From the NCBI RefSeq assembly GCF_002067135.1, contig NZ_CP020105.1, positions 992,001-1,056,000 on the forward strand: a stretch of DNA of 64,000 bases, read 5' to 3'. Positions 6,518 through 32,541 of the stretch are shown piece by piece (the stretch's first letter is position 1; each line of letters opens with the position of its first letter). Below the pieces are notes generated by a model that had not been told where the DNA came from, did no database searches, and was given only the letters and a program-made list of their open reading frames with translations. The DNA is from Spirosoma rigui (GTDB taxonomy: Bacteria; Bacteroidota; Bacteroidia; Cytophagales; Spirosomataceae). The translations under genes were made by a program, and so were the position numbers.

Positions 6518-6534
6518 CAGTCATTTTAAACGAA

Positions 6535-6564
6535 CGCCCGGACCACTGCAACGTGGTCCGGGCG
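6535..6564 (+). terminator. Hairpin after the VCBS lipoprotein gene
   Basis: Perfect 12-bp stem (CGCCCGGACCAC at 6535-6546, complement at 6553-6564) with the six-base loop TGCAAC, starting 18 bases after the stop codon. It is GC-rich but no T tract follows, so termination strength is uncertain. Confidence 0.6.
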
Positions 6565-6623
6565 GGGTGTACTACACAAACAAAGATTATTAGCTAGCTA
6601 CCGTTTCAGACTATTCGTTTGCT

Positions 6624-6791
6624 ATGAAGATACTACTACTCGTTGGGAGCTTGTTGCTGGCCTTTCTGCACATTACAACAGCGCTGGTTTTGGCTATTGG
6701 TTTTGTGCTGTTTGTCATACCCGTTATCATTATCCGGCATGCCCTGGGTCTTCACCGAACACTCCCCCAGGAGGCCGGGCGTAGCCACTAG
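6624..6791 (+). CDS. Small hydrophobic membrane protein, 55 residues
   Basis: A short open frame (ATG at 6624, TAG at 6789-6791) encodes a 55-residue protein starting MKILLLVGSLLLAFLHITTA. One long or two short hydrophobic segments cover residues 2-37. A short polar tail (RHALGLHRTLPQEAGRSH) follows. I do not recognise the family. Support comes from the clean membrane-protein composition and the ATG start. The stop codon also fits neatly, 8 bases before the convergent DUF4249 gene ends. Against it are the small size and the lack of a visible ribosome-binding site. It could be a chance frame. Confidence 0.45.
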   Translation: MKILLLVGSLLLAFLHITTALVLAIGFVLFVIPVIIIRHALGLHRTLPQEAGRSH

Positions 6792-6798
6792 CCTAGCC

Positions 6799-7689: not shown

Positions 7690-7739
7690 GGTGTTGTGTT
7701 TGTACAGCCTTCTCACCGACGGGTCGATGAGGAAGGGTA

Positions 7740-12168: not shown

Positions 12169-12350
12169 GGAATGGGGGGCGTAAACTTTACCCTGTTTAG
12201 TTACGTTCTCATTGTAACTAACAACTACAAACCAACCCAATGGTTGCGTCTACCTTTCGTCAGCAAGCTTCCGCGCTGGCCGCAGTATTCCTGTCGGCCC
12301 TGGGCGTGCCGACGCGGAGACGGCCGATTGGTCAACAGAAATCAACGACT

Positions 12351-12917
12351 ATGACCACAGATCAAGCAGAAAACCTCGAAAAGGCAACCTTTGGTACGGG
12401 CTGCTTTTGGTGTACCGAAGCCCTTTACGAGTCCCTGGACGGTGTTATCGATGCCGTGTCGGGTTACGAAGGCGGCCAAAAGCCAAACCCCACCTATAAC
12501 GAAGTGTGTACCGGTACCACGGGCCACGCGGAGTGCGTTGAGGTGCTATATGACCCCAAAAAAATAACGTATCAGGAGTTGCTGGAAGCATTTTTCCGCA
12601 GCCACGACCCGACTACACTGAACCGCCAGGGCGCCGACGTAGGTACGCAGTACCGTTCGGTGATTTTCTACCACAACGACGAGCAGAAACGGCTGGCCGA
12701 GACGGCCAAACTGGAACTGGATAAAGCGGGTGCTTACACCAATCCGATTGTAACAGAGATCAGCCCCGCCGAAACATTCTACACGGCCGAAGCCTATCAC
12801 CAGAGCTATTTCGCCAAAAACCCCAATCAGGGCTATTGTGCCTTTGTCATTGCCCCGAAGCTGGACAAATTCAAAAAAGTATTTAAAGAGAAATTGAAGT
12901 CCGCTGAGCAAGTGTAA
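12351..12917 (+). CDS. msrA: Peptide-methionine (S)-S-oxide reductase
   Basis: Repairs oxidised methionine (S-epimer of methionine sulfoxide) in proteins, using thioredoxin as reductant. The 188-residue protein carries the MsrA active site GCFWCTEA with catalytic Cys18 and nearby Cys21, the GYEGG motif, GHAECVEV, and a C-terminal GYCAFVIAPKL segment with a possible resolving Cys. The ATG at 12351 gives the normal family length. An in-frame ATG at 12240 would add 37 residues with weak signal-peptide character (SALAAVFLSALGVPTRRRP). A secreted form cannot be excluded, but that extension is low in conservation-like features. It is divergent from the PPK2 pair and ends at a strong bidirectional terminator. 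Confidence 0.95.
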   Translation: MTTDQAENLEKATFGTGCFWCTEALYESLDGVIDAVSGYEGGQKPNPTYNEVCTGTTGHAECVEVLYDPKKITYQELLEAFFRSHDPTTLNRQGADVGTQYRSVIFYHNDEQKRLAETAKLELDKAGAYTNPIVTEISPAETFYTAEAYHQSYFAKNPNQGYCAFVIAPKLDKFKKVFKEKLKSAEQV

Positions 12918-15315: not shown

Positions 15316-15323
15316 TATATTTG
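15316..15323 (+). promoter_or_regulatory. Candidate distal -7 box TATATTTG upstream of susC
   Basis: TATATTTG matches TAnnTTTG, about 200 bases before the susC ATG. The nearest TTG upstream is only 10 bases away, so the -33 element is not convincing. Confidence 0.25.
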
Positions 15324-15436: not shown

Positions 15437-15444
15437 TACTTTTG
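15437..15444 (+). promoter_or_regulatory. Candidate proximal -7 box TACTTTTG upstream of susC
   Basis: TACTTTTG matches the Bacteroidota -7 consensus TAnnTTTG and lies 78 bases before the susC ATG. A second near-match, TAGTTTG at 15451-15457, has a TTTG 18 bases upstream (15429-15432), so either could be the real promoter. Confidence 0.4.
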
Positions 15445-15522: not shown

Positions 15523-18500
15523 ATGAAACCAAAATTACTTCGGAACCTGCCCAGGTTGCTGTTACTCCTGGGTGCCTGGATCGTATGTGCGTCTTCGCCT
15601 TCGTTTGCCTTCGATAAAGAGGTAACCGGAACGGTCAATGATGAAAAAGGGAATGAACTAGCCGGTGTAACGGTAACCATCAAGGGCACAACCCGGGGTA
15701 CCAATACCGACGCCAACGGACGCTACCGGATCACCGTACCCGAGAACAACGCGGTTCTGGTCTTCTCCTATATTGGTTATTCAGCCCAGGAAATTGCGGT
15801 GGGCGCACGGTCGGTTATCGATGTTAAGCTGAATCCGGGCGATGTAAACCTGAGCGAAGTGGTCGTTACCGCCCTTGGCGTATCCAAAGAAGCCCGTAAA
15901 ATAGGCTACGCGGTCACCACGGTTGATGGTAGCGCCCTGACCAGAGCCCGCGAAACAAACATTGGTAACTCGCTGGTTGGCCGGGTAGCCGGTTTAAACG
16001 TAAAAGGAACGAACAGCGGTCCCGGCGGCACGGCCAAGATCCTGATGCGGGGTATGCCCAGCATGAACTCGGCCGGATCGCCCCTGATCGTTATCAACGG
16101 CGTTCCTATGGACAACACCCAGCGTGGTAGCGCCGGTGAGTGGGGTGGTGCTGATGGTGGCGATGGACTGGGTAACCTCAACCCGGACGATATCGAGACA
16201 ATGACCGTTCTGAAAGGACAGTCGGCATCGGCGCTGTACGGGGCGCGGGCTTCAAACGGGGTTATCCTCGTTACAACCAAACGCGGCAAAAAAGGTGATT
16301 TTGCCGTCGACTACAACATGAACCTCACAACTGATCAGCCCGTTAATTTCACGGATTTTCAGTATGAATACGGCCAGGGTATCAACGGGCAGAAGCCCAC
16401 GACCGTTGCCACGGCTCAGCAAACGGGCCGGATGAGCTGGGGTAGCAAGCTGGATGGTTCCAGCGTTATTCAGTTCGACGGCAAGCAATACCCATACGTA
16501 GCGCAGCGGGACAACATCAAGAATTTCTATAAGATGGGGTCCAACTTCACAAATACCGTAGCGGTAACGCGTGGTGGCGAGAACGGTTCGTTCCGGCTGT
16601 CGCTGTCGAACCTCGACAACAAGGGAATCATCGAAAACACGGGCCTGACCCGCAAGACGATCAACCTGACGGCTGACCAGAACATTACGTCGAAACTAAG
16701 TTTCAGCGTACTGGCCAACTACATCGACGAACGGGTGAAAAACAAGCCTATCCTGAGCGATGGCCCGATGAACGCCAACAACGGCCTGATGCTGGCGACG
16801 AACATTGACCAGCGGATTCTGGCACCGGGTTACAACACCACAACGGGCAGGGAAATCATCTTCAGCGATGACGAATACGTAACCAACCCCTACTTTGTGG
16901 TCAACCAGTTCGTCAACAATGTCAACCGGAAGCGGCTGATCTCGATGGTATCGACCAAGTATCAGTTTGCCGACTGGATTTATGCGCAGGCCCGCGTGGG
17001 ATACGACAACGCCAACGACCGTATTTTCAAGGTAACGCCCTGGGGAACGGCATATTCAAACGGCACCAAAGGCGGACTCGACGAACTGTCCAACGCCCAG
17101 CGTACCGAGCTGAATATCGATGGCTTGCTTGGCGTCAACAAATCTTTCGGTGCTGATTTCTCCGTGAATGCGTTACTGGGTGGTAACATTCGGAAGAACA
17201 ACTACGAGAAGATCGGTATCAACGGTGGCCCCTTCGTTCTGCCTTACCTCTACAGCTGGAACAACGTAGTGAACTACAACCGCAACTACGAAGTAGCGAA
17301 CACCGAAGTGCAGTCGGGCTATTATAACGTCGACCTGGCCTATAAATCATTCCTGACCATCGGTACAACCGGTCGTTATGATACCTACTCGACCCTACCC
17401 AGCGCAAACCGCAGTATTTTCACCCCTTCGGTAACGGGCGCTCTGGTGTTTTCCGACCTGGTTCGGGTGCCAAACCTGAGCTTTGGTAAACTTCGCGCGT
17501 CTTACGCCATGACCAGCGGTGAGCCAACAACGGCCTACGGTACCAGCGTATACTATAGCGTAGGGAATGCCATCAACGGTGTTGCTACGGGTAACTTCAG
17601 CGACCGGCTGCCAAACCTGTTCCTGAAACCCTTCACCAAGACCGAGCTGGAACTGGGTCTGGAACTGCGCTTCTTCGGCAGCCGCTTAGGATTCGACGTA
17701 GCGTACTACACCCAGAAAACCCGCAATGAGATTATGCCAGCCAACTACAGCTGGGCAACAGGCTACTCCAGCGGTGTAGTCGGTACGGGTTCTGTGCAGA
17801 ACAACGGTCTGGAATTGCAGATCACGGGCACCCCGATTCGTAAATCGAACCTGAACTGGAATATCTCGCTGAACATGACCTCGGTTCACAACAAGATTCT
17901 GAAAACGGACGAAAACAACAACCCCATCACCCTTGGCTCAAACCGGGCTACGCTGGGTAATGCGGTTACGGCGTTTGTGGTTGGAGAATCTGGCCCCCAG
18001 ATCCGGGCTTATGACTACAAATATGCCGCTAACGGCCAGATCGTTGTGGATGCCGCTGGCCTGCCCGTTCGGGGTAACCTGATCAACGCGGGTACCGTGC
18101 TGCCCACCCTGTATGGTGGCCTGAACAATGACTTCACATTCGGCGGCTTCAATCTTTCGTTCCTGATCGACTACAACTACGGTAACAAGATTCTGTCGGC
18201 AACGGAGAACTACGCATACCGTCGCGGCCTGCACAAGGCTACGCTGGTTGGTCGGGAAGGTGGCGTGACCACGGGTGTTGGCGAAGGCGGTGCTGCCAAT
18301 ACGGTAGCGGCTACGGCCCAGGCCTATTACACGGCGCTGGCCAACAACGTTACGAAGGTTAGCGTAGTCGATGGTGACTTCATCAAAATGCGTCAGCTTA
18401 CCTTTGGTTACAACCTGCCGGTTCGCCTGCTGGAGAAGATGCCACTGATCCGGGCGGTCAACGTATCGGTCGTTGCCCGGAACCTCTTCTACATCATGAA

Positions 18501-18624
18501 GAAGACGACTAACATCGATCCAGAAGCGTCTTTCGGCTCTAACCTGAACTATTCAGGTATTGAGGGGGCTAACCTGCCCGCTATTCGTAACTATGGTGTA
18601 AACCTGAATATCAAGTTTAAATAA
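15523..18624 (+). CDS. SusC/RagA family TonB-linked outer membrane protein
   Basis: Outer-membrane TonB-dependent importer of 1033 residues that should form a complex with the SusD-like lipoprotein encoded next. Domains in order are a signal peptide (about 1-29, ending PSFAF) and a CarboxypepD_reg-like domain (about 33-110, VTGTVNDEKGNELAGVTVTI). Then comes the SusC signature LSEVVVTALGVSKEARKIGY near residue 114. The plug (about 130-245) contains NPDDIETMTVLKGQSASALY. A 22-strand-type barrel ends in NIKFK. Length is normal for SusC. susD begins 7 bases after its stop codon. The substrate is unknown: no glycoside hydrolase, polysaccharide lyase or protease lies nearby, and the companions are a VCBS protein and a haloperoxidase-like enzyme instead. 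Confidence 0.95.
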   Translation: MKPKLLRNLPRLLLLLGAWIVCASSPSFAFDKEVTGTVNDEKGNELAGVTVTIKGTTRGTNTDANGRYRITVPENNAVLVFSYIGYSAQEIAVGARSVIDVKLNPGDVNLSEVVVTALGVSKEARKIGYAVTTVDGSALTRARETNIGNSLVGRVAGLNVKGTNSGPGGTAKILMRGMPSMNSAGSPLIVINGVPMDNTQRGSAGEWGGADGGDGLGNLNPDDIETMTVLKGQSASALYGARASNGVILVTTKRGKKGDFAVDYNMNLTTDQPVNFTDFQYEYGQGINGQKPTTVATAQQTGRMSWGSKLDGSSVIQFDGKQYPYVAQRDNIKNFYKMGSNFTNTVAVTRGGENGSFRLSLSNLDNKGIIENTGLTRKTINLTADQNITSKLSFSVLANYIDERVKNKPILSDGPMNANNGLMLATNIDQRILAPGYNTTTGREIIFSDDEYVTNPYFVVNQFVNNVNRKRLISMVSTKYQFADWIYAQARVGYDNANDRIFKVTPWGTAYSNGTKGGLDELSNAQRTELNIDGLLGVNKSFGADFSVNALLGGNIRKNNYEKIGINGGPFVLPYLYSWNNVVNYNRNYEVANTEVQSGYYNVDLAYKSFLTIGTTGRYDTYSTLPSANRSIFTPSVTGALVFSDLVRVPNLSFGKLRASYAMTSGEPTTAYGTSVYYSVGNAINGVATGNFSDRLPNLFLKPFTKTELELGLELRFFGSRLGFDVAYYTQKTRNEIMPANYSWATGYSSGVVGTGSVQNNGLELQITGTPIRKSNLNWNISLNMTSVHNKILKTDENNNPITLGSNRATLGNAVTAFVVGESGPQIRAYDYKYAANGQIVVDAAGLPVRGNLINAGTVLPTLYGGLNNDFTFGGFNLSFLIDYNYGNKILSATENYAYRRGLHKATLVGREGGVTTGVGEGGAANTVAATAQAYYTALANNVTKVSVVDGDFIKMRQLTFGYNLPVRLLEKMPLIRAVNVSVVARNLFYIMKKTTNIDPEASFGSNLNYSGIEGANLPAIRNYGVNLNIKFK

Positions 18625-18631
18625 GACAACA

Positions 18632-20233
18632 ATGAAGAAGAGAATCATCGCAATATCCTTCCTCATAGGAGCCCTGCAATTTTCGTGTTCGGATGATTTC
18701 GACGCGCTGAATACAGATCCGACGAAGGCATCGAGCAGCACCTTTGATCCAAACCTGCTGTTGCCTACGTCGCAGTGGACCTACGTCAATGCGTATTCCG
18801 GCTACAACGGTCCCATCCTGTTTCAAAGCATGTGGGCGCAGGTATATGCCTCCACAACATCGGGTGCGGCCAACTATTACACGAACGCTGACAAGTACGT
18901 CATTTCGGGTAACACCAACGATTACCAGGGCCGCACCTGGAACGAAGGGTTCAAAGCCGCCAGCTTCGCTTACGAAATGGAGCAGCTGACCAAGGGCAAT
19001 CCGGCCCAGGTCAACCTGAACAGCATCGCGATCATTATGCAGGCCCAGTGCCTTGCCACGGTCAGTGATATTTACGGCGACATTCCCTACACGCAGGCGT
19101 TGCAGGGAAAAGCAGGTACCAGCCTGCCCGTATACGACACGCAGGAAAGCATCTACAAATCGCTGCTGAGCCGGCTCGAAACAGCCACCGCGGCACTGAG
19201 CACGTCTGCCCTAGTTCCTTCGAATGATGCGTTCGCCTACAAAGGCGACGTTGCCAAGTGGAAAAGGTTTGGCTATTCGCTGATGCTGAAGCTGGCCATG
19301 CGGTTGACCAAAGTCGATGCCGCTACGGCTAAAACTTACGCCGAAAAAGCCGCTGCCGGTGGTGTTTTCAGCAGCGTAGCAGACGACGCCTATGTCGTAG
19401 CCGATAACGCCAACAACTACGGCAACGGCAATGGTGCAGCCCTGTCGACCGCAGCCGACGTGTATCAGGTTCGCTGGAGCAAAACCATGATCGACTACCT
19501 GAAAGCCAACGAAGATCCCCGGTTGAGTGTCGTTGCCGAAGTGCCGGCTAGTGGGCTGGCGGCCAATCAGGATATGACGATTGCCGGTAATACCGCGCCT
19601 GCCGCGCAGCTGGGCCTGCCCAACGGCTATGACCTGAACGGTGGCGCCACGGACATCACCAAGTCGCCGGGCTATCCTGGTGGTACGGGTACCGGTGGCG
19701 ACGTAACACCCATTGGTAAGTACTCGCGGCCTACCCTGCTCTTCAGAAGCCGGAACGCCCCCCTGTTCGTGCTGACCTACGCGGAAACCGAACTGCTGCT
19801 CGCGGAAGCCGCCACGCGGGGATTTGCCGTAACGGGCAGCGCTGCCCAGCACTATAAGAACGGTGTTGCGGCTGGCATCCAGTCGCTGGCCAAATTTGGT
19901 ACGGCGGCCACGATCGACGCAGCAACGGCAACGGCCTATGCTGATGCACACCCGCTGGTAGCAGCCAACGCGCTTAAGCAAATCAACGAGCAGTACTGGG
20001 CCACTACGGGTCTATTACAAAACTTCGGCGAAGCCTGGAACAACTGGAAACGGTCGGGATTCCCGCAGCTGACCCCGGTCAACTACACGGGTAACTTCTC
20101 GAACGGCACGATTCCACGCCGGCAACCGTACCCAACGACGGAAGCAACGCTGAATACGGCGAACTACCAGTCGGCAACGGGTCGTCTGGCCTCGGGCGAC
20201 AACTGGGTGTCGCGCGTTTGGTGGGACAAATAA
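18632..20233 (+). CDS. SusD/RagB-like lipoprotein (SusD_2 type)
   Basis: Surface lipoprotein of 533 residues that caps the SusC pore and helps capture substrate. The signal sequence ends in a lipobox LQFSC (lipidated Cys about residue 19), followed by SDDFDALNTDPTKAS, the usual opening of the SusD_2 branch. TPR-like helical repeats follow, with FGYSLMLKLAMRLTKV near residue 210, and a typical C-terminal part (RNAPLFVLTYAETELLLAEA, WNNWKRSGFP). It is co-transcribed with susC (7-base gap). A strong terminator follows 15 bases after the stop codon. Confidence 0.93.
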   Translation: MKKRIIAISFLIGALQFSCSDDFDALNTDPTKASSSTFDPNLLLPTSQWTYVNAYSGYNGPILFQSMWAQVYASTTSGAANYYTNADKYVISGNTNDYQGRTWNEGFKAASFAYEMEQLTKGNPAQVNLNSIAIIMQAQCLATVSDIYGDIPYTQALQGKAGTSLPVYDTQESIYKSLLSRLETATAALSTSALVPSNDAFAYKGDVAKWKRFGYSLMLKLAMRLTKVDAATAKTYAEKAAAGGVFSSVADDAYVVADNANNYGNGNGAALSTAADVYQVRWSKTMIDYLKANEDPRLSVVAEVPASGLAANQDMTIAGNTAPAAQLGLPNGYDLNGGATDITKSPGYPGGTGTGGDVTPIGKYSRPTLLFRSRNAPLFVLTYAETELLLAEAATRGFAVTGSAAQHYKNGVAAGIQSLAKFGTAATIDAATATAYADAHPLVAANALKQINEQYWATTGLLQNFGEAWNNWKRSGFPQLTPVNYTGNFSNGTIPRRQPYPTTEATLNTANYQSATGRLASGDNWVSRVWWDK

Positions 20234-20247
20234 GCCAATCATGATGT

Positions 20248-20290
20248 AAAATAGCGAAAGGTCTCTTCATGGGACCTTTCGCTATTTTTA
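20248..20290 (+). terminator. Strong terminator between susD and the VCBS gene
   Basis: A 16-bp perfect stem (AAAATAGCGAAAGGTC at 20248-20263, complement at 20273-20288), extended inward by a wobble pair and one more pair, with a T run to 20289. It lies between susD and the VCBS gene at 20321. Expression of the downstream pair should therefore depend on read-through or a separate start. Confidence 0.88.
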
Positions 20291-20320
20291 CCTATTTTTA
20301 GTGTCTATTTTTTGCGCGTT

Positions 20321-23300
20321 ATGTCTTCCCCGACGTCAGTGTCTCACCGGATTTTATGCTTGTACCGAGTCGTTCGCTACGGCTTTTGCCGCCTTGCCCT
20401 GGTTTGCGTTCTGACCAGTAGCGTTGTGGCCCAGCCCCTGTTCACGCTGCTGCCAGCCAGCAAAACGGGGGTTGCCTTCCGGAACGATATCGATGAGAAC
20501 GAGAGCCTGAACGTGCTGTCGTACGAATACTTTTACAACGGAGCCGGTGTTGCTGTCGGGGATTTCAACAACGACGGCTTGCAGGACATCTTTTTTACGG
20601 CCAACCTCAAATCGAACAAACTGTACCTGAACCTTGGCAACCTGACGTTTAAAGATATCACCAAGGATGTTGGAGCCGACGTAGCCGGCCGGAGCGGGGG
20701 CTGGAAAACGGGGGTTAGCCTGGCTGATGTCAACGGCGACGGCTGGCTGGATATCTACGTGTGCTATTCGGGAAAAGTCGACGAAGCCAAACGGCGCAAC
20801 CAGTTGTTCATCAATCAGGGCCTTTCCGGTAGGTCAGGGGGGACTGTCCGATTTGTGGAACAGGCCAAAGAGTATGGCCTCGACGATCCGGGCTACAGCA
20901 CGCAGGCATCCTTTCTGGATTACGATAAGGATGGCGATCTGGATATGTTGCTGCTCAACCACAACGTCAGGAAATTCGACAATATGGAGCTGGCCAAATA
21001 CCGTACAGCGGTTGATCCACTGTCCGGCAACAAGCTCTACGAAAATCAGGATACTCATTTCCGGGATGTCACCCAGAAAGCGGGCATTCACCAGTATCCG
21101 CTCACCTTCGGACTGGGCGTAGCCGTAGCCGACATCAACGGCGACAGTTGGCCCGACATCTACGTCACCAACGATTACAACGAACCCGATTACCTGTATA
21201 TCAATCAAAAAAACGGTACGTTCAGCGACGAAACCCAACAGCACTTCCGGCACCTGCCCCAATTCTCGATGGGTGTCGATATTGCTGACTACAACAACGA
21301 CGGCCTGCCAGACCTGATGTCGCTGGATATGCTGCCCGAAGACAACCGTCGCCAGAAACTGCTGCAGTTGCAGGAAAACTACGAGTCGTTCGAGCTGATG
21401 CAGCAGCAGGGATTGCAGCGCCAGTATATGCGCAACATGCTGCAACTTAACAATGGCGACGGCACCTTCAGCGAAATTGCGCAGACGGCGGGCGTATCCA
21501 ACACCGACTGGAGCTGGTCACCGCTCCTGGCCGACTACGACAATGACGGCTATAAAGACCTGTTCATCACCAACGGCTATCTCCGTGATTATACGAACAA
21601 GGATTTCCTCCGCTACTGGGGCGACTATAAGGTTCAGAAAGCCATAAACCGCGAATCGGTTCAACTGATGGACCTGGTGCGGGCCATGCCTGCCACCAAA
21701 ATCCCGAATTACATTTTCCGCAACAACCACGACCTGACGTTTGCCAACAAGCAGCAGGAATGGGGATTTCAAACCCCGTCCGTATCCAGCGGAGCCGCCT
21801 ATGCCGATCTGGATAATGATGGTGACCTGGAGCTGGTGGTTAACAATATTAATGAAGCCGCCTTCATCTACCAGAATCAGAGCCGGGAGCAGACCCGTAA
21901 CGGCTACGTTCAACTGAAGCTGGTTCCAGCACGCGGCAACAGAAATGCACTGGGTGCGCAAGTAACCCTGTACGCGGGCGGCAACCGACAGTATCAGGAG
22001 ATCAGTCCGGTGCGCGGGTACTTGTCAACACAGCCGCTGGTACTTCATTTCGGTATCGGTACTGCTGATCGGGTTGATTCGGTGGCAGTCACCTGGCCCG
22101 ACCAGACCCGGCAGGTCATTGCGGGCGTACCAATTAACCGGCAAACGATTGTTCAGCAACCCACTACGGGCCTCACGTCTCCCCCGCTTCCGGGTCCCAA
22201 AGCGACGAGTCCTCTCTTCGCCAGAATGGCCCCGGTCGTGGCGCATACGCACGAAGGACTGACCGAAAATGACTTCAAGCGGCAGCCTCTCATGTTGTGG
22301 ATGTACTCGCATACGGGACCGGTGCTGGCCCGGGGCGACGTCAATAAAGACGGGCTGGACGATATCTTCATCAGTGGCGACCCGAACAAGCCCGGCCATG
22401 TCTGGCTGCAGCAGAAGAACGCACCCGCCACGAGTCCGGCTTTCCAGAAAATAGACGCCCTGTCCATCGGCGATGAATCGGTATCGTCGATTTCGGCCGC
22501 CGTTTTTTTCGATGCAAACGGCGATGGCTACGACGATCTATACGTAGCCAGGGGAGGTTATTCCCTGTTCGAGACGAACACGGCCGCGTTGCAGGATGAA
22601 CTATACCTGAACAACGGAGCCGGGATGCTGACCCTGTCGGCAACGGGGCTTCCCAACGTGAGCGCCAGTAGTAAATCGTGCGTACGTCCCTGCGATTTCG
22701 ACGGCGACGGCGACCTTGACCTGTTTGTGGGCGGGCGGGTTGTACCGGGCCGATATCCGGAATCGCCCGTTTCGTACCTGCTTGAGAACAACGGCAGGGG
22801 TCAGTTCAAGCCCCTGGCCATTCCCTTTGCCCGGGCGGGCATGGTGACCGATGCCCAGTGGTCCGATATGGACAACGACGGGCGAGCCGACCTGGTCATC
22901 TGCGGGGAGTTCATGCCCGTAAAGATCTACCTCAACAAAAAGGACGGCTTCGTTGACCGAACAAAAGCCTATTTCCCAACCCCCACGCCCGGCTTCTGGC
23001 TATCGCTGGCGATAGCCGATGTTAACGGCGATGGGCAGAAAGACATCATTGCCGGAAACTTGGGCACTAATTCGCAACTCCATATTTCGGAACGGGAACC
23101 CGCCGATTTGTACTTTACGGATTTCGATCAGAACGGCTCCATCGATCCCTTTTTCAGTTTTTACGTCCAGGGAAAAGCCTACCCGTTCGTCAGCCGTGAT
23201 GAGCTGAATGACCAGATTTACGCGATGCGGAAGAAGTTTGGCTTCTACAAGGATTATGCCGGCGCTACGGTACAGGATATTTTCCCGGCAGATGAACTGG

Positions 23301-23698
23301 CCCGGGCCCAGCGGTTGATCGTGTCCGAATGCCATACCGTCTGTTACCTGGCTAAGAACGGCACGTTCGAAACCCATATTCTACCCATCCAGGCCCAGTT
23401 TTCGCCGGTTACCGCCAGCGTTGTGCGGGATGTAAACCACGACGGACACCCCGACCTGCTGCTATTTGGCAACAAGACAGACAACCGGCTCAAACTGGGC
23501 AGCATGGATGCCAATTACGGCTGTTTGCTGGTGGGTGATGGAACGGGTACGTTTCAGTATGTAAGCCAACCGGCTTCGGGTTTATCGGTAACGGGCGACG
23601 TTAAATCGGTTATCGACCTGACTGTCCAGCAGAAGCAATGCCTGATTATTGGTGCTTTTAACCAACCGCTGCAGGTATACAGCGAGCAAAAAAAATGA
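20321..23698 (+). CDS. Secreted VCBS/FG-GAP repeat protein with ASPIC/UnbV domain
   Basis: Exported protein of 1125 residues. The ATG at 20321 is preferred; a TTG at 20312 would add three residues. A long basic N-terminus leads to a signal peptide ending VCVLTSSVVAQ, with no lipobox, unlike its paralogue at 2939. I count 14 DxDxDGxxD loops. Seven precede the ASPIC/UnbV domain (DFNNDGLQD through DLDNDGDLE), which lies at about 540-610 (ALGAQVTLYAGG, VTWPDQTRQVI). Seven follow it (DVNKDGLDD through DVNHDGHPD). Each loop can be matched in order with one in the paralogue. It probably forms two calcium-bound propellers. The next gene overlaps its end by 4 bases. The molecular role is unknown. Confidence 0.9.
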   Translation: MSSPTSVSHRILCLYRVVRYGFCRLALVCVLTSSVVAQPLFTLLPASKTGVAFRNDIDENESLNVLSYEYFYNGAGVAVGDFNNDGLQDIFFTANLKSNKLYLNLGNLTFKDITKDVGADVAGRSGGWKTGVSLADVNGDGWLDIYVCYSGKVDEAKRRNQLFINQGLSGRSGGTVRFVEQAKEYGLDDPGYSTQASFLDYDKDGDLDMLLLNHNVRKFDNMELAKYRTAVDPLSGNKLYENQDTHFRDVTQKAGIHQYPLTFGLGVAVADINGDSWPDIYVTNDYNEPDYLYINQKNGTFSDETQQHFRHLPQFSMGVDIADYNNDGLPDLMSLDMLPEDNRRQKLLQLQENYESFELMQQQGLQRQYMRNMLQLNNGDGTFSEIAQTAGVSNTDWSWSPLLADYDNDGYKDLFITNGYLRDYTNKDFLRYWGDYKVQKAINRESVQLMDLVRAMPATKIPNYIFRNNHDLTFANKQQEWGFQTPSVSSGAAYADLDNDGDLELVVNNINEAAFIYQNQSREQTRNGYVQLKLVPARGNRNALGAQVTLYAGGNRQYQEISPVRGYLSTQPLVLHFGIGTADRVDSVAVTWPDQTRQVIAGVPINRQTIVQQPTTGLTSPPLPGPKATSPLFARMAPVVAHTHEGLTENDFKRQPLMLWMYSHTGPVLARGDVNKDGLDDIFISGDPNKPGHVWLQQKNAPATSPAFQKIDALSIGDESVSSISAAVFFDANGDGYDDLYVARGGYSLFETNTAALQDELYLNNGAGMLTLSATGLPNVSASSKSCVRPCDFDGDGDLDLFVGGRVVPGRYPESPVSYLLENNGRGQFKPLAIPFARAGMVTDAQWSDMDNDGRADLVICGEFMPVKIYLNKKDGFVDRTKAYFPTPTPGFWLSLAIADVNGDGQKDIIAGNLGTNSQLHISEREPADLYFTDFDQNGSIDPFFSFYVQGKAYPFVSRDELNDQIYAMRKKFGFYKDYAGATVQDIFPADELARAQRLIVSECHTVCYLAKNGTFETHILPIQAQFSPVTASVVRDVNHDGHPDLLLFGNKTDNRLKLGSMDANYGCLLVGDGTGTFQYVSQPASGLSVTGDVKSVIDLTVQQKQCLIIGAFNQPLQVYSEQKK

Positions 23699-25014
23699 GA
23701 TATTTTCTTCTCGGCTGGTTACTGATAAGCCACGCAGCCTGGGCAAAGCCGAAGCCCAAACCCGATCTGGGGACGCATCTTCAGCCTACCCTGTTTGCCG
23801 TAACAATGGTGATGATCCACGATGTCGTGAATCCGCCCGCGGCCAGTCGTTTTTACACCTACTGCCTGCTGGGTGCGCACGAGATTACGGCACAACGCAA
23901 CGCAGGCATTGTGTCGCCATCGTCGTTTGTTCGTGAGTTCAAAGCGCTCGATCTGCCAGCCAGCGAGCCGTATAATTACCAGATAGCGGCCCTCTACTGC
24001 ATCCTCGAAACCGGCCGGCAACTTATCCCATCCGGGCATCTGCTGGAAGCGGAGCAGACAAAGCTGCTTGGCCAGCTCAAAAAGGAAGGATATGGCGACC
24101 CGGTATTACAGGCGTCCGTTGCCGTTGCGCAGGCGGTGGCGCGGCAAATTGTTGGATATGCCGCCAGCGACAATTACCGAAAACTAAGCGCCCGGCTACG
24201 GTATCGGCCCACGAAAAGCGATGGGTCCTGGTATCCAACACCCCCCGCTTACATCGAAGCCATTGAACCCCACTGGCGAACCGTCCGGCCTATGGTCATC
24301 GACTCCTGTACGCAGTTCAAGCCCCTGCCACCGGTGCCGTTCAGCAAAGACAGCAGCAGCGCATTTTTCAAACTGGCCTACGACGTATACCAAACAGGAA
24401 ACACCCTGACCGACGAGCAACGCTTCATAGCCTCGTATTGGGACTGTAACCCGTTTGCCGTAAACACTTCCGGGCACATGGCCATCGGTTTCAAGAAAAT
24501 AAGCCCCGGTGGTCACTGGATGAACATCACCAGTATCGCCACCGCCCGGGCAAAACTGCCGTTTGACAAGACAATTCTGGTGCATTCGCTGGTGGCTATG
24601 ACCCTGCTGGATTCGTTTATCAGCTGCTGGGACGAGAAGTATCGCAGTAACCGCGTCAGGCCCGAAACAGTCATCAACCGGTATATAAATGTTCACTGGC
24701 AGCCACTTCTGCAGACACCGCCGTTCCCGGAGTATACCAGTGGCCACAGCGTTATCTCCACGGCGGTAGCTGAGTTACTGTCTTACCTGATCGGCGATAC
24801 GTTTGCCTTTACCGACAATACCGAGATTCTGTTCGAATTACCGGAACGGGAGTTCAAATCGTTTCGGCAGGCCGCCAGTGAAGCCGCTATTTCACGGCTG
24901 TACGGCGGTATCCACTACCGCGACGCCATCGTTAACGGGCAGGCACAAGGAAAGGCAATCGGTGAATTTGTCGTGGCCCGGCTCAAAAAGCTTGGTGTAG
25001 CGCCTGTATTGTAA
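23695..25014 (+). CDS. Secreted vanadium-haloperoxidase/PAP2-like protein
   Basis: A 439-residue exported enzyme (signal peptide MRYFLLGWLLISHAAWA) of the PAP2/vanadium-haloperoxidase superfamily. The oxyanion-binding residues are visible: K315 with R322-P323 (K-x6-RP), S349-G350-H351 in EYTSGHS, and R401 with H407 in SRLYGGIHYRD. The spacing after the last His (H-x2-D) is one residue shorter than the usual PAP2 pattern. Family chemistry is either halide oxidation with hydrogen peroxide when vanadate is bound, or phosphate ester hydrolysis; sequence alone does not decide. The ATG overlaps the VCBS stop codon (ATGA), so the two are translationally coupled. It is an all-helical periplasmic or secreted protein. 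Confidence 0.88.
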   Translation: MRYFLLGWLLISHAAWAKPKPKPDLGTHLQPTLFAVTMVMIHDVVNPPAASRFYTYCLLGAHEITAQRNAGIVSPSSFVREFKALDLPASEPYNYQIAALYCILETGRQLIPSGHLLEAEQTKLLGQLKKEGYGDPVLQASVAVAQAVARQIVGYAASDNYRKLSARLRYRPTKSDGSWYPTPPAYIEAIEPHWRTVRPMVIDSCTQFKPLPPVPFSKDSSSAFFKLAYDVYQTGNTLTDEQRFIASYWDCNPFAVNTSGHMAIGFKKISPGGHWMNITSIATARAKLPFDKTILVHSLVAMTLLDSFISCWDEKYRSNRVRPETVINRYINVHWQPLLQTPPFPEYTSGHSVISTAVAELLSYLIGDTFAFTDNTEILFELPEREFKSFRQAASEAAISRLYGGIHYRDAIVNGQAQGKAIGEFVVARLKKLGVAPVL

Positions 25015-26811: not shown

Positions 26812-26875
26812 ATGAGTTTCACAAAAAAAGCCCCTCATCGCACGATGAGGGGCTTTTTTTGTGAAACTCATTTAC
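26808..26875. terminator. 33-bp perfect palindromic bidirectional terminator containing both stop codons
   Basis: Arms at 26808-26840 and 26843-26875 are perfectly complementary over 33 bp with two bases between. A GCCCCTCATCG core is flanked by runs of seven A and seven T, so it terminates on both strands. The TAA of the upstream barrel gene (26809-26811) and the TGA of the convergent prolyl oligopeptidase (26868-26870) both lie inside the arms. Confidence 0.92.
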
Positions 26876-29006
26876 TCGCCACTTCTTTCAGACTCTTCAC
26901 GCCCATGTTCCAGAGGATGAAGGCGTAAATATCGGCAGTGGTTTCAATGTTCTTTTTGGTGTTGCTGGCACCGTGGCCCGAGTTCACATCGACCCGAATC
27001 AGAACGGGATTAGTCCCTTTGTAAACTTCCTGCAACGTAGCCGCGTACTTGAACGAGTGGGCCGGCACAACCCGATCATCGTGGTCAGCAGTGGTAATCA
27101 TTGTAGCGGGATAGTTAACACCCGGCTTCAGATTCTGAATGGGCGAGTAGGCATACAACGCCTTGAACTCCTCGGCGTTGTCGCTGCTGCCGTAGTCGGC
27201 GATCCAGTTCCAGCCGATGGTGAACTTGTGAAACCGGAGCATGTCCATCACACCTACCTGCGGAATAGCCACCCGGAACAGTTCGGGACGCTGGTTCATA
27301 ACCGCTCCCACCAGCAGCCCACCATTTGAGCCGCCCTGGATGGCCAGTTTAGCCGGACTGGTATACTTTTGGGCAATCAGGTACTCGGCCGCGGCAATGA
27401 AATCGTCGAATACGTTCTGTTTCTTGAGCTTCATGCCCTGTTCGTGCCAGGTTTCGCCGTATTCGCTGCCACCGCGCAGGTTGGCTTGGGCATAAACACC
27501 ACCCTGTTCCAGAAACGGGATCCGTAGCGGGCTAAACGCGGGCGGCAGGCTGATGTTGAAACCACCGTAGCCATAAAGCAGCGTCGGGTTGGTACCGTCG
27601 AGTTTAATGCCTTTGCGGTAGGTCAGGAACATAGGCACTTTGGTGCCGTCCCTGCTGGTGTAAAATACCTGTTTCGTTTCATAATCACCGGGGTTGAAAT
27701 CAACGTCCGGTGCCCGGAAAACGGTACTCTTGCGCGTAGCGATGTCGTAGCGGTAGATGGTTGGCGGGAAAGTGAACGAGGTGAAGGAATAGAATACGAA
27801 CTTATCGTCTTTCTCGCCCCCGAACCCGCCGGCCGACCCAATAGCGGGCAGTTTGATCTCACTCTCCTGCTTACCGGCATAATCGAACACCAGCACCTGT
27901 GAGGTTACGTCTTTCGAATACTCCACGAATAGTTTACCACCGGCTGCGCTCACGCTGTTTTCAGCAATGGGCTGCGGCCTTTCGGGAATGAGTGGCGTAA
28001 ACGCCCGCTTCTTCGTATCAAAGGCAACAACCTTGCTGTTAGGCGCTTTTTCGTTGGTCAGGATCAACAGCCGGTCGCCGTCGTTGTCGACTACGTTATA
28101 GCTGAAGTTGGTAACCTCAGCAACCACCGGTTTAAACGTCTTTTCGGCTGACTTGGCATCGATATAGAACAGGGCGTTACCGTCTTTCCCCTGGCCCCGG
28201 TCGCTGATGGTGAGCAACACAAAACGCTCGTCGTCGGTGGTGCCAACGGTATGAAACCGCTGCGGGCTTTTGGCATCTTCGTAGACCAGCCGGTCGGCCG
28301 ACTGTGGGGTGTTGAGGGTATGAAAAAACACCTGGTGGTTCTCGTTCTTAGCCGCCAGCGCCGAGCCTTCGGGTTTAGGGTACCGGCTGTAGTAAAAGCC
28401 ATTACCCTGCCAGGCGGCCCCGGATACCTTCACCCATTCGATCTTGTCGGACAGGTACTGCTTGGTCGCCAGATCCATCACCTGGTATTCCTGCCAGTCG
28501 GACCCACCTTTCGACAGGCCAACTACGGCATAGTGGCCATCTTTCGACAGAGAAAAGACCCCCAGCCGGGTCGTACCGTCGGCAGAAAGTTTGTTGGGGT
28601 CAATGACCAGCTCGGGTTTGCCATCCAGTCCTTTCTGGCGGTACAGCACCGACTGATTCTGCAGCCCGTCATTTTTCGAGAAGTAGAACCACTCACCTTT
28701 CCGGCTCGGAGCCGAATATTTGGGGTAGTTATAGACCTGCTCCAGCCGGGATTGCAGCTGCGAGCGGTAGGGAATCTGGGCCAGGTAGCCAAACGTAACC
28801 TTGTTCTCGGCTTTTACCCACTCGGCGGTTTCGGCCGACCGATCGTCTTCCAGCCAGCGGTAAGGATCGGCCACTTTTGTGCCGTGGTAATCGTCGGTCT
28901 GATCGGTTTTGCGGGCTTTGGGATACGCCAGCGGGGTGTCGCCCTGACCTACGGCAACAGATGAACTCAGCATGAGCAACAGGTAAATAGGTTTGAACGA
29001 ATACAT
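26868..29006 (-). CDS. Prolyl oligopeptidase, S9A family
   Basis: Serine peptidase of 712 residues that cleaves short peptides after proline. A signal peptide (MYSFKPIYLLLMLSSSVAVG) suggests periplasmic export. The N-terminal helical part (YPKARKTDQTDDYHGTKVAD, DPYRWLED) leads into a seven-bladed propeller (about 75-430). The C-terminal alpha/beta hydrolase follows. Catalytic residues are visible: Ser560 in GGSNGGLL, the Asp in DHDDRVVPAHS near residue 640, and His678 in SGHGAS. The YGYGGFNISLPP segment forms part of the oxyanion region. Length is normal for the family. It is monocistronic and ends in the shared palindrome. Confidence 0.96.
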   Translation of the reverse strand: MYSFKPIYLLLMLSSSVAVGQGDTPLAYPKARKTDQTDDYHGTKVADPYRWLEDDRSAETAEWVKAENKVTFGYLAQIPYRSQLQSRLEQVYNYPKYSAPSRKGEWFYFSKNDGLQNQSVLYRQKGLDGKPELVIDPNKLSADGTTRLGVFSLSKDGHYAVVGLSKGGSDWQEYQVMDLATKQYLSDKIEWVKVSGAAWQGNGFYYSRYPKPEGSALAAKNENHQVFFHTLNTPQSADRLVYEDAKSPQRFHTVGTTDDERFVLLTISDRGQGKDGNALFYIDAKSAEKTFKPVVAEVTNFSYNVVDNDGDRLLILTNEKAPNSKVVAFDTKKRAFTPLIPERPQPIAENSVSAAGGKLFVEYSKDVTSQVLVFDYAGKQESEIKLPAIGSAGGFGGEKDDKFVFYSFTSFTFPPTIYRYDIATRKSTVFRAPDVDFNPGDYETKQVFYTSRDGTKVPMFLTYRKGIKLDGTNPTLLYGYGGFNISLPPAFSPLRIPFLEQGGVYAQANLRGGSEYGETWHEQGMKLKKQNVFDDFIAAAEYLIAQKYTSPAKLAIQGGSNGGLLVGAVMNQRPELFRVAIPQVGVMDMLRFHKFTIGWNWIADYGSSDNAEEFKALYAYSPIQNLKPGVNYPATMITTADHDDRVVPAHSFKYAATLQEVYKGTNPVLIRVDVNSGHGASNTKKNIETTADIYAFILWNMGVKSLKEVASK

Positions 29007-29298
29007 AGGAAACGCTTTATAAACGAGTCGACGAAACCAACAAGTTTACGAATAACGCCCCCCTGCACTGAAAAGGCAAATGGCGCGTCAATCAGGTGCG
29101 TTAGTCACTCAGCCCAACGGCTCGTTTAGACGGTCTTGTTTTTAGACAGGTTTGGAAATACGACAAATAGACACCTCATTTACAATCTTTTACTAATAGC
29201 CTAAACAACCGCCTATACGTCGACGCCCTGTTTTGTTTTTGACGAAGCCAAGCCATTCGTTCACCCTTGTTACCAAACGCCAGCCCTCCCGCCTAGCC

Positions 29299-32200
29299 AT
29301 GAATCTACGTCTACGCAGTATCTGTCTGATTGCCGGCCTGATCATGCTGATTCAGGCCGGCTGGGCGCAGATGGTACCCTCGAACAGCACCGCGTTTCGG
29401 GTTGATCATATCGGGGTCAATGACGGACTGACACAGGGGTCTGTGTATTCTATTCTGAAAGACAGCCGGGGCTTTCTGTGGTTCGGCACCCAGGACGGTC
29501 TCAATCGGTACGACGGTCACCGGTTCCGTACGTTTCTACCGGCCAGCGAGCCGCTACCGTCCACAAAGTCGACGCTATCGGCGGCCGGCCATATTCAGGG
29601 TGTAACCATTCTGGGCATTGTGGAATCGCCCGATGGTAATTTGTGGATCGGAACAGAAGAGGGCCTGAACTGCTACGATCGTCAGCGCGATCGGTTCGAC
29701 TGTTTTCTGCCGGACAGCCCGGCCAACAACCCTCTGTCGAATCGGGTCCTGCCTTTTTACGCCGATCAGCGCGAAGTACTGTACCTGAGCGACGCTGAAG
29801 GACTGGTTCGGTTCGACTACCACACGAAACGCAAAACGGTGCTGACGGCCGGTCTTCACCTCAGCCAGGAATATGACCTGCCCAGTTCAACCACCCGCAC
29901 GGCTTCGGGCAGCGTCTGGCTCCACGCGCCCAGCGGCCTCATCCGCTACGACCTGCAAACGCACACGCTCCACCGATACTTCAGCAACCGGGCCGATAAT
30001 CGCTTCGGGCCACCGCAAACCATCTTTTCGTTTTTCATTGACAGCAACGATATTGCCTGGCTCGGCACCGCTACCGGACTGATCCGGTTCGACTACCGGA
30101 ACAACGCCTATCAGGCCTACAACTGGCTCGGCAAGCAGCCCATCAGCGCCATATACAGCATTGCCCAGGACCAGCGCGGCCGCCTTTGGCTGGGCAGCCA
30201 GCGCGACGGCGTCCTGTATTTCGACAAACGGTCGCGGCTGTTTGGTCAGGTCAATTCATTCACGAACGCCAGCCAGCAACTGAGCGAGTTTGAGATCAGT
30301 AAGGTCTACGTCGATGACCTGGGGATTATCTGGGCCAACGTTGACCCCAATGGACTGGCGCGTATCATCCCCGATGCTTTCCTGTTCAACGGCATGAGCA
30401 AACGCCAGTCGGTGGGGAGCATTTCTCCCGACCAGCGCCTGTCCAATTACACCGTTCGTGGCTTTATGGAAGAGCGATTCGACCGGATCTGGATTGCTAC
30501 GGAAAATGGCATCAACGTTTTCAACCCGCGCACCAACCGGATTGTGGACCGTTACCTGACCGGGCAGCGATCGTCCATGCCGATGCGGAATACGATCAAA
30601 GCCCTCTACCGCGACCCGCAACGGCGTATCTGGGTTGGGTTGCCGGGGGGCGTTCTGGCCTTCGACGCCACAACCAGAACCTTCACCCCCATTCGGTTCA
30701 CGAATTCGAACGCTCAGGTCGCCGACAACTACGTTCGTAATCTGACCAGTATTAATGACTCAACGCTTGTTGCCGCCACCGAAGACGGTCTGTATGCCCT
30801 GAATACCACTCGGCGAAAATGGTCGAAACTACCCGTGCTCACCAATGAGAATATTTTCAGCCTCTGGTACGATACCGCAGCCCGGCAGCTATGGGTTGGC
30901 ACCTACCTGAACGGGTATGTCTGTTACCAATTGCCGGCCATTGCCGGTGATCCCTGGCGGAAGATCAGGTCAGGGCTGGCCGGGTATATGGTGCTGCAGG
31001 TGCGGCCCGATCCTGTTCACCAGCTCATGTGGCTGGCTACCGATCAGGGGCTGATCACCGTGCGCCCCGGCACGGGAAAAATAACAATGTATACCAGCCG
31101 GCAGGGGCTGGCCAACTCATTCGTATACGGCTCGCTACCCGACGTGAACAATGCCATCTGGCTTAGTACTAACCGGGGCCTGTCGCGGCTGGACGTACCA
31201 ACGGGTACCATCAAGAACTTTGACCTCAACGATGGTTTACAGGGGTACGAATTCAACGGAAATGCGTTTTACAAGACAGCATCGGGCGAACTCTATTTTG
31301 GCGGAGTGACGGGTTTTAACCGCTTCCGGCCCGATCAGTTCCGCAGTTCGTCCCTCAGCTCGCCCATTCATATCTACTCGTTCAACGTCAATGATGAACC
31401 CTTCATGACCGACGACTACGTGGGCGAACGCGAAGCCATTGAGTTAACCCACGAGCAGAACACCATTTCACTTGAGTTTGCGGCTCTCGATTACCGGAGC
31501 AATGGCCGCAATACGTACCAGTATCAGCTTACCAACTACGATCCGCAGTGGGTAATGGCCGGCGAACGAAACTACGCCCGTTACGCCAATCTGCCCCCCG
31601 GCGACTACGTGTTTCAGGTGAAGGCGGCCAACAAAGACGGGCACTGGGACCGCCGGAGCCACCAGCTCAAGATCACGATTCAACGCCCTTTCTGGCAAAC
31701 GATCCCGTTCCTGCTGCTCTGTCTGGGACTGATGGTACTCGTCATTGCCGGTTGGGTGCGCCAGCGCGAAAACGCCATTCACCAACAACAGGCCGACCGG
31801 CTACGGCTGGCTTACAGCATCCAGGAACAGGTGAAGAAAGACATTGCGCGTGACCTGCACGACGAAATTGGCACCCGGCTGGCCACCATTAAACTTTACA
31901 CGACCCAGCTTACCCAGCAGGCGGGTGAGACACCGGTTATCCTGTCGCTGAAGACGACTATTTTTGGCCTCATCAACGATACAATCAGTGATGTCCGGAA
32001 CCTGCTTCGTAAGCTAAACCCGCAAACGCTGGAGCAGCACGGTTACGTAGCCGCCGTGGAAGAGCTTTTCTCCCGGGTCAATGCAAGTGGTGTTATCAGC
32101 ACGAAGCTATCGCTGGGTGAGAGTCTGGTTACGCAGCCCGCCAGTCCGGGCGAATTCAACTCGATCGTCACCAACCGCCCGCCCGCCGATACGGAAGTGA

Positions 32201-32541
32201 TGCTCTACCGGATTACGCAGGAGCTGGTCAACAACTCGCTCAAACACGCCAACGCCCGTACCATTGAGCTTCACATTGAGCAACAGGCCGACCGGATGCT
32301 GCTCAACTACCGGGATGATGGACAGGGGTTTGACTACGGCAAAGCCTGGCGCGGAGCATCGGGCCTTGGCCTGGGCGGAATCGACTCGCGAGTCGCCATT
32401 CTGAAGGGGAAAGTCAACTGGCAAACGCAGCCTGGCCTGGGAACGCGGGTCATCATCGACGTACCCATTGGCCTGACCAGCTCGCATCCGCGCCAGCCGT
32501 CGGCCAGTTCAAAAGCTCAGCCAACCGGTTCAGCAGGATAA
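29299..32541 (+). CDS. Reporter-propeller sensor histidine kinase (HisKA_3 type)
   Basis: Membrane sensor kinase of 1080 residues; ATG at 29299 starts a signal peptide (ICLIAGLIMLIQAGWAQ), and an upstream TTG is less likely. The periplasmic part has two-component regulator propeller repeats (DSRGFLWFGTQDGLNRYDG, SPDGNLWIGTEEGLNCYD) covering about 50-700. A Y_Y_Y domain follows (about 710-790, ending DYVFQVKAANKDG), then one membrane helix near 800-825. The cytoplasmic kinase has phospho-acceptor His854 in ARDLHDEIG and an ATP-binding domain with N978/N979 in QELVNNSLKHAN and DDGQGFD. Unlike many Bacteroidota relatives it has no fused response regulator or AraC domain, and no LuxR-type regulator lies next to it. 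Its end overlaps the convergent exonuclease gene by 12 bases. Confidence 0.93.
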   Translation: MNLRLRSICLIAGLIMLIQAGWAQMVPSNSTAFRVDHIGVNDGLTQGSVYSILKDSRGFLWFGTQDGLNRYDGHRFRTFLPASEPLPSTKSTLSAAGHIQGVTILGIVESPDGNLWIGTEEGLNCYDRQRDRFDCFLPDSPANNPLSNRVLPFYADQREVLYLSDAEGLVRFDYHTKRKTVLTAGLHLSQEYDLPSSTTRTASGSVWLHAPSGLIRYDLQTHTLHRYFSNRADNRFGPPQTIFSFFIDSNDIAWLGTATGLIRFDYRNNAYQAYNWLGKQPISAIYSIAQDQRGRLWLGSQRDGVLYFDKRSRLFGQVNSFTNASQQLSEFEISKVYVDDLGIIWANVDPNGLARIIPDAFLFNGMSKRQSVGSISPDQRLSNYTVRGFMEERFDRIWIATENGINVFNPRTNRIVDRYLTGQRSSMPMRNTIKALYRDPQRRIWVGLPGGVLAFDATTRTFTPIRFTNSNAQVADNYVRNLTSINDSTLVAATEDGLYALNTTRRKWSKLPVLTNENIFSLWYDTAARQLWVGTYLNGYVCYQLPAIAGDPWRKIRSGLAGYMVLQVRPDPVHQLMWLATDQGLITVRPGTGKITMYTSRQGLANSFVYGSLPDVNNAIWLSTNRGLSRLDVPTGTIKNFDLNDGLQGYEFNGNAFYKTASGELYFGGVTGFNRFRPDQFRSSSLSSPIHIYSFNVNDEPFMTDDYVGEREAIELTHEQNTISLEFAALDYRSNGRNTYQYQLTNYDPQWVMAGERNYARYANLPPGDYVFQVKAANKDGHWDRRSHQLKITIQRPFWQTIPFLLLCLGLMVLVIAGWVRQRENAIHQQQADRLRLAYSIQEQVKKDIARDLHDEIGTRLATIKLYTTQLTQQAGETPVILSLKTTIFGLINDTISDVRNLLRKLNPQTLEQHGYVAAVEELFSRVNASGVISTKLSLGESLVTQPASPGEFNSIVTNRPPADTEVMLYRITQELVNNSLKHANARTIELHIEQQADRMLLNYRDDGQGFDYGKAWRGASGLGLGGIDSRVAILKGKVNWQTQPGLGTRVIIDVPIGLTSSHPRQPSASSKAQPTGSAG

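Follow-up and report, generated by a model that had tools for sequence, protein, structure and literature searches.

The PDB entry 4usz is titled as the first bacterial vanadium dependent iodoperoxidase, and a passage of PMC5064120 gives Zobellia galactanivorans as the source of this crystallised enzyme. In the parts of the literature drawn on here, discussions of the role of bacterial vanadium iodoperoxidases (VIPOs) have so far dealt only with halogens, iodine and the defence of algae. Another kind of described system, the SusCD polysaccharide utilisation locus, has a SusC-SusD tandem followed by secreted proteins. We analysed a block of four genes from Spirosoma rigui that has features of both, with a SusC-SusD tandem, a gene for an FG-GAP/ASPIC protein and a gene for a VIPO-family enzyme. 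The block lies in what we call the window, the whole 64,000-nucleotide stretch of DNA that was analysed (992001-1056000 on the one 5.83 Mb contig). We found that the last two genes form a pair that is strongly conserved across the phylum. Among the titles and abstracts listed as matches in the literature search, none linked haloperoxidase genes to ASPIC/VCBS or SusCD genes; Fournier 2014, the primary paper on the Zobellia enzyme, lies outside the coverage of that search. Two papers, PMC9296495 and PMC12188728, mention both haloperoxidases and polysaccharide utilisation loci.

The block and its VIPO-family enzyme

The sequence-only reading of this DNA had placed susC, susD, an ASPIC gene and a PAP2 gene in order on one strand, with a 4-base overlap between the last two and no glycosidase or protease among them. 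This description held. The four open reading frames (ORFs) are intact at the positions given and their families match:

15523-18624, + strand: susC, encoding a SusC/RagA TonB-linked outer-membrane protein of 1033 amino acids (aa) (NCBIfam TIGR04056, 588.8 bits)
18632-20233, + strand: susD, encoding a SusD-like_2 protein of 533 aa (Pfam E=1e-67)
20312-23698, + strand: FG-GAP/ASPIC gene (Pfam FG-GAP_3 E=1e-85, UnbV_ASPIC E=4e-22)
21947-22144, + strand: UnbV_ASPIC domain, residues 546-611 (Pfam E=4e-22)
23695-23698, + strand: overlap of the ASPIC stop and the enzyme start, 4 bases, ATGA (read from the sequence)
23695-25014, + strand: VIPO-family enzyme of 439 aa (Pfam PAP2 E=1.5e-10)

The ASPIC gene begins with TTG as listed (20312), and its first ATG is at 20321. 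SusD is a probable lipoprotein with a lipobox, LQFSC-SDDFD, that was found by eye and that the scripted lipobox test failed to flag. Pfam detected no glycosidase or protease within the four genes; 1.85 kb further downstream, the other strand carries an S9 prolyl oligopeptidase. The block shares its tandem with SusCD polysaccharide utilisation loci but carries a haloperoxidase in place of a carbohydrate-active enzyme or known sugar sensor, and Pfam found no glycan-active enzyme or sugar regulator in the block or the adjoining ORFs that were scanned.

We compared the enzyme with solved structures by profile and by fold. A profile from 39 relatives matched 4cit/4usz over the full length (E=3e-178), and the next solved enzymes were vanadium haloperoxidases (VHPOs), including NapH types, near 1e-10 and the Curvularia chloroperoxidase near 3e-4. 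A predicted model of the enzyme (predicted local distance difference test, pLDDT, 87.5) gave a Foldseek match to the Zobellia iodoperoxidase at E=5e-29. Fold comparison of this model gave Z=49.8-50.1 for 4usz/4cit, against 27-28 for chloroperoxidase and NapH types, 15-17 for bromoperoxidases and at most 14.7 for phosphatases. The closest solved relatives are therefore 4usz/4cit and not the class A/PAP2 acid phosphatases. The enzyme is 44% identical to 4CIT over 410 residues and has the stretches WDEKYRSN, RPETVIN, LQTPPFPEYTSGHS and SR.YGGIHYR in common with it. By homology, the enzyme is a full-length member of the Zobellia VIPO family. The sequence-only reading had called it haloperoxidase-like, which agrees with these results, and had left it as "oxidative or phosphatase", a choice that these results narrow but do not decide.

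The likeness to the Zobellia enzyme (4CIT, 4USZ) extends from full-length homology to the vanadate-pocket motif, identical active-site stretches, a common clade and the same ASPIC neighbour. The two also differ. The window enzyme sits in a SusCD locus and is known here from sequence and a model, and the 4CIT sequence starts with a lipobox (by eye), whereas the window enzyme has a signal peptide, judged by eye, and no lipobox was found in it. The Curvularia vanadium chloroperoxidase and the Streptomyces NapH-type enzymes have the same fold and catalytic residues as the window enzyme but are only 13-19% identical to it (Z about 28) and belong to other subfamilies.

The ASPIC protein resembles cartilage acidic protein 1 (CRTAC1, PDB 9etn), with which it has FG-GAP repeats in common. 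Both the FG-GAP repeats and the UnbV_ASPIC domain score above the Pfam cut-off. The best solved match was murine CRTAC1 both for the AlphaFold model (pLDDT 86.3, predicted template-modelling score 0.86; E=2e-27) and in a profile search of the PDB (E=3e-28). Thirteen calcium motifs were found by regular expression and one more, with a changed glycine at residue 274, by eye. These split 7 + 7 around the ASPIC domain and agree with the 14 repeats of the sequence-only reading, while Pfam counts fewer, with 9 FG-GAP_3 and 2 FG-GAP stretches passing alone. Because of the motif spacing and the CRTAC1 match we call the protein a CRTAC1-like double propeller; it is predicted to be secreted, with signal peptides judged by eye. 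It is about twice as long as CRTAC1, with seven extra repeats after the ASPIC domain.

Linkage of ASPIC and VIPO genes

The survey of gene neighbourhoods covered 61 genomes from the bacterium's family, the own genome among them, and 58 of these had an enzyme match at E<=1e-30. We sorted 101 enzyme loci into tiers according to their BLAST bits against the window enzyme (>500, 295-500 and below). Tier 1 comprises the orthologues including the window, tier 2 has bits of about 300-440 and tier 3 bits of 144-194. From the 97 tier-2 rows of the family search 67 were classified, 66 plus a paralogue in the own genome (L021) that is among the 97, and the 20 tier-3 loci are a sample among the matches listed. 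Three loci without an anchor (L070, L210, L225) were excluded. Gene calls were longest ORFs and labels were assigned with BLAST panels taken from this genome and linked loci, so divergent SusC or SusD proteins may look unlabelled and other glycosidase families go uncounted.

In tier 1, 14/14 loci had the ASPIC gene immediately upstream in the same orientation, and 14/14 had SusD. The tier-2 enzymes had an ASPIC gene directly upstream in 42/67 loci and within two genes in 45/67, and both ASPIC and SusD within six genes in 34/67. By contrast, no tier-3 locus (0/20) had a co-oriented ASPIC gene among the six genes upstream of the enzyme. These counts rule out chance adjacency. The own genome has only 9 ASPIC-domain hits in 5.83 Mb, and yet all 14 orthologues are linked, so the order is far beyond chance. 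Thus, the co-occurrence that the sequence-only reading had left to a neighbourhood survey is there. An ASPIC link to VHPO-like genes in general can be set aside, given the tier-3 result and six VHPO-like genes of the own genome (L018, L019, L020, L023, L024 and L027 on the tree below) that fall outside the VIPO group.

The linkage extends beyond the family. Loci from named organisms, the best 80 of 591 in a search with an alignment of 39 members, had ASPIC directly upstream in 75/79 cases and SusD as well in 52/79; since all 39 seed sequences are ASPIC-linked, this ratio describes the clade and not the enzyme class. Linked loci were found in Dyadobacter (Cytophagales), Niastella (Chitinophagales), Mucilaginibacter (Sphingobacteriales) and Flavobacterium xinjiangense (Flavobacteriales). 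A search with the 4CIT sequence gave matches at E<=1e-110 in 42/296 phylum genomes. We picked 20 loci from these by hand, and among the 19 with an anchor ASPIC was directly upstream in 11, within six genes in 14 and absent in 5, with SusD in 10/19. One genome, which we take for a Zobellia, has an enzyme that matches 4CIT at 98% identity. The gene order there is ASPIC-ASPIC-ASPIC-VIPO-GyrI-like; a divergent sodium:solute symporter accompanies it and SusCD does not adjoin.

We built a quick tree from 72 linked and 54 unlinked enzymes plus 4CIT, 127 in all. Of its rows, 57 form a clade, supported at 97 by the SH-like approximate likelihood ratio test (SH-aLRT), that holds the window enzyme and 4CIT, with 55 ASPIC-linked rows and one unlinked row in it. 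The window enzyme thus groups with Zobellia-type VIPOs, apart from other VHPO-like genes. The linkage label changes 9 times on this tree (at least 6 by starred branches) versus 40.9 times when shuffled, and 0/500 shuffles were as low. Another branch of the VIPO family, seen at five loci (L111-L115), has no ASPIC gene and follows mreB, mreC, a 172-aa ORF and a gene of about 400 aa; in L112 the latter belongs to the beta-lactamase family (Pfam).

The vanadate pocket (K-x6-RP, SGH, SR-x5-H by regular expression) is formed in the window enzyme by K315, R322, S349-G350-H351, R401 and H407. It is present in 14/14 tier-1 enzymes, window included, in 67/67 of tier 2 and also in 20/20 of tier 3, so the motif marks a wider class and not the Zobellia-type clade. 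Two second-shell residues, a tryptophan three residues before the lysine (W312) and a phenylalanine five before the serine (F344), which we take as the counterparts of Curvularia W350 and F397, occur in 14/14 and 67/67 enzymes of the first two tiers.

The own genome contains 18 PAP2 matches (some two per gene) and 25 SusD-like_2 matches. A second module at about 800-815 kb (L021; bases 796000-815500) has the order SusC (cut by the region's end)-SusD-ASPIC-ASPIC-ASPIC-VIPO. Its third ASPIC gene (5944-9416, minus strand) is present as two ORFs of 827 and 282 aa and is probably broken or mis-sequenced. In L023 a VHPO-like gene follows SusD without an ASPIC gene.

Possible roles of the module

We favour the reading, with a probability of roughly 0.5 for the whole, that the block is an import locus carrying an ASPIC-VIPO module whose enzyme is a vanadate peroxidase near the import pore. 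The SusC/SusD pair would import a carbohydrate or glycoconjugate, and the calcium-binding, CRTAC1-like ASPIC protein would be the partner or scaffold of the enzyme, perhaps in a physical complex with it. With hydrogen peroxide, and close to the pore, the vanadate enzyme would oxidise a small electron-rich substrate such as iodide, and this oxidation may modify or detoxify what enters with the glycan. Both proteins would be exported to the same compartment. In some lineages both would be lipid-anchored, whereas here they would be soluble and most probably periplasmic.

Predictions of lipid anchoring for the enzyme and the ASPIC protein agreed in 50/55 loci (both anchored in 20, neither in 30; Fisher p=4e-10), by a crude test that flags 26/34 SusD proteins and with a p value that ignores shared ancestry. 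The distance correlations in 34 loci, to which the same caveat on ancestry applies, were 0.95 for VHPO-ASPIC, 0.86 for VHPO-SusD and 0.84 for ASPIC-SusD. L021 was excluded from both comparisons since its adjoining ASPIC ORF is short. In all 14 orthologous pairs the crude lipobox test found no lipobox on either protein, which makes the periplasm likelier than the cell surface here, and Pfam found no type IX secretion system tail on the window ASPIC protein or enzyme. The proposal that the enzyme and the propeller work outside the cell is thus not supported in this genome.

The sequence-only reading had also taken the lack of glycosidases to mean a non-glycan substrate. This is disfavoured by relatives of the locus. 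In the BLAST panel a ROK, GH29 or GH20 gene lies within eight genes of 8/14 tier-1 and 9/45 linked tier-2 loci, as against 0/22 unlinked tier-2 and 0/20 tier-3 loci, a panel drawn from linked loci and so not blind, whose 0/42 misses other glycosidase families. A cluster of ROK-family proteins is found near 16 linked loci (two members Pfam-checked, with weak helix-turn-helix matches), a GH29 alpha-fucosidase directly downstream in seven (two Pfam-checked) and a GH20 hexosaminidase in four (two Pfam-checked). Some phylum-level loci have GH65 or trehalase genes. Given these genes in relatives, the lack of glycosidases in the block is no argument for a non-glycan substrate. Other recurrent neighbours of linked loci are sigma-70/FecR pairs and FAD-Fe-S oxidases of about 990 aa; Pfam checks covered one or two members of each recurrent family. 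In 11 loci the gene just before the ASPIC gene encodes a secreted protein of roughly 450 aa that has a single CxxCH motif; these proteins (L065-L078, L083, L231) gave weak cytochrome or copper-monooxygenase Pfam matches and no PDB sequence match at E 0.1 in an alignment-based search. At L231 the related protein has a sub-threshold copper-monooxygenase match and comes after an AhpC/TSA-type protein. Companions of 242, 180 and 239 aa had no Pfam match and one of 197 aa matched DUF4136 only; NCBIfam gave no match for the 242-aa and 197-aa proteins.

Several observations weigh against the import reading. The glycan context is borrowed from relatives and not from the window locus, and a Pfam scan of the block and its neighbouring ORFs found no glycosidase and no ROK gene. 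The absence of SusCD beside the pair in the Zobellia-like genome makes SusCD optional and import not obligatory. On the tree, 17/72 linked rows fall outside the 57-row clade, inside a 101-row VIPO group, where they are mixed with unlinked clades such as L111-L115. The tryptophan and phenylalanine are also present in 17/20 tier-3 enzymes and so do not mark the clade, and the lipidation test and the glycosidase panel carry the limits given above. Other ASPIC genes of the own genome are followed in one case by a glycerophosphodiester phosphodiesterase (GDPD) gene and in another by McrC. The hairpin after susD, described below, may simply terminate transcription.

VIPO-family genes very often have a propeller-protein gene bound to them, and these pairs often stand in SusCD loci beside sugar-related genes. 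This suggests that the VIPO-family enzyme does not normally act alone but has a partner, with sugar uptake as a frequent setting. The linkage offers a concrete partner protein, and loci with known glycosidases and regulators from which an inducing substrate could be traced. A wider and rather doubtful extension is that oxidising enzymes coupled to SusCD import have a general scaffold in the cell envelope, the ASPIC proteins, of which VIPO is the chief client. The loci of some relatives that also hold a CxxCH haem-motif protein or an FAD/Fe-S oxidase favour it, but the own ASPIC genes before GDPD or McrC, and an FAD oxidase near 3/22 unlinked tier-2 loci, do not. If it were true, the job of bacterial VIPOs would be oxidative processing during glycan uptake and not iodine metabolism.

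It is possible, though unlikely, that the pair is a peroxide or halide defence or an iodine-handling unit that travels with nutrient loci without acting on import. The Zobellia-like locus, with ASPIC and VIPO but no adjoining SusCD, would suit such a unit. Zobellia vIPO3 is upregulated on a brown alga according to a passage on algal halogen defence (PMC9296495), and an excerpt of PMC5064120 gives at least five homologues for the iodine accumulator Arenibacter C-21. Against this stand the recurrent GH29, GH20, ROK, GH65 and trehalase neighbours and the presence of the pair in Dyadobacter, Mucilaginibacter and Pedobacter. These three genera are largely non-marine.

We consider it improbable that the enzyme is a phosphatase acting on imported phosphorylated sugars or lipid head groups, with the ASPIC protein as a binding protein and the peroxidase likeness reflecting ancestry. 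The enzyme belongs to the PAP2 superfamily and has the K-R-SGH-R-H residues in common with it, and class A acid phosphatases aligned over some 195 residues at Z 14.7, close to the values of the algal bromoperoxidases. A paralogous SusCD-ASPIC locus continues into the GDPD gene, which fits phosphate chemistry equally well and so counts against the import reading too, as does the apo-chloroperoxidase with a phosphate intermediate (3bb0), by which this fold can hydrolyse phosphate esters. We also take iodide to be scarce on land. However, the full-length identity is to a vanadium-dependent iodoperoxidase and is far closer than that to any phosphatase. In addition, a passage of PMC11871015 groups the Zobellia enzyme with those whose active site is hard to reach. 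Such a site would suit large phosphate esters poorly.

Transcription of the block and its surroundings

We examined the non-coding DNA of the block for signals of transcription. The sequence-only reading had treated the four genes as one locus and had overlooked a hairpin after susD:

15316-15323, + strand: second candidate -7 element, TATATTTG, upstream of susC (pattern TAnnTTTG)
15437-15444, + strand: candidate Bacteroidota -7 element, TACTTTTG, upstream of susC (pattern TAnnTTTG)
20248-20288, + strand: 18-bp terminator-like hairpin with a T-rich tail in the susD-ASPIC gap (free energy dG -27.9 for an 83-nt stretch, z -6.58)

A scan for terminator-like patterns around the hairpin gave 14 sites versus 13.6 in shuffles, and the hairpin at 20248-20288 was by far the longest. 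Hairpins were present in 13/14 orthologous gaps, one of them weak. Those scoring >=18 within 200 nt after SusD numbered 33/43 when the next gene was ASPIC and 11/14 when it was unclassified, compared with 0/630 in shuffles, 1/73 after SusC, 2/91 after ASPIC and 14/117 after the enzyme. A terminator specific to this locus was therefore rejected, as hairpins follow most SusD genes examined. Across loci (window, L018-L135) they are present even where the next gene is co-oriented, and their sequence varies while their position is kept. This suggests that SusD 3' hairpins are a general step-down device of SusCD operons.

The pattern TAnnTTTG, which we take to be the Bacteroidota -7 consensus, occurred before susC in 9/13 orthologous loci versus about 3 expected from mononucleotide shuffles. 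In the susD-ASPIC gap it occurred in 1/14 loci, with about 1.2 expected, and not in that of the window, so a separate promoter there has no support. Because hairpins are general after susD and the gap has no promoter-like box, the four genes probably form one attenuated operon, in which a promoter before susC would read all four genes and the hairpin would turn down the ASPIC-VIPO pair. Weak, leaky terminators have been reported inside an operon of a Bacteroides xylanisolvens polysaccharide utilisation locus, in a part of PMC4855328. That susCD instead ends at the hairpin, leaving the ASPIC-VIPO pair as a second transcription unit with its own role, would account for the strong hairpin and T tail and their recurrence in 13/14 gaps but is very unlikely given the order kept in 14/14 orthologues, the lone promoter-like box in 1/14 gaps, the generality of hairpins after SusD genes and the leaky terminators in Bacteroides. 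The genes belong together by their conserved order, and the reading as one locus holds with the hairpin after susD as a caveat; SusCD is optional.

The scanned ORFs adjoining the block encode two PPK2 proteins, a methionine sulfoxide reductase, S9 and S41 peptidases, a sensor kinase, a photolyase, a DUF4249 protein, a TonB plug protein and proteins without an assigned family. A second FG-GAP/ASPIC protein of 1192 aa is encoded in the window at 2939-6517, preceded by an ORF at 1155-2687 without a Pfam match. The peptide methionine sulfoxide reductase, which repairs oxidised methionine, is at 12240-12917, 2.6 kb before susC. Just downstream of the block are the divergent S9 prolyl oligopeptidase (26868-29006) and a Reg_prop/Y_Y_Y sensor histidine kinase (29233-32541).

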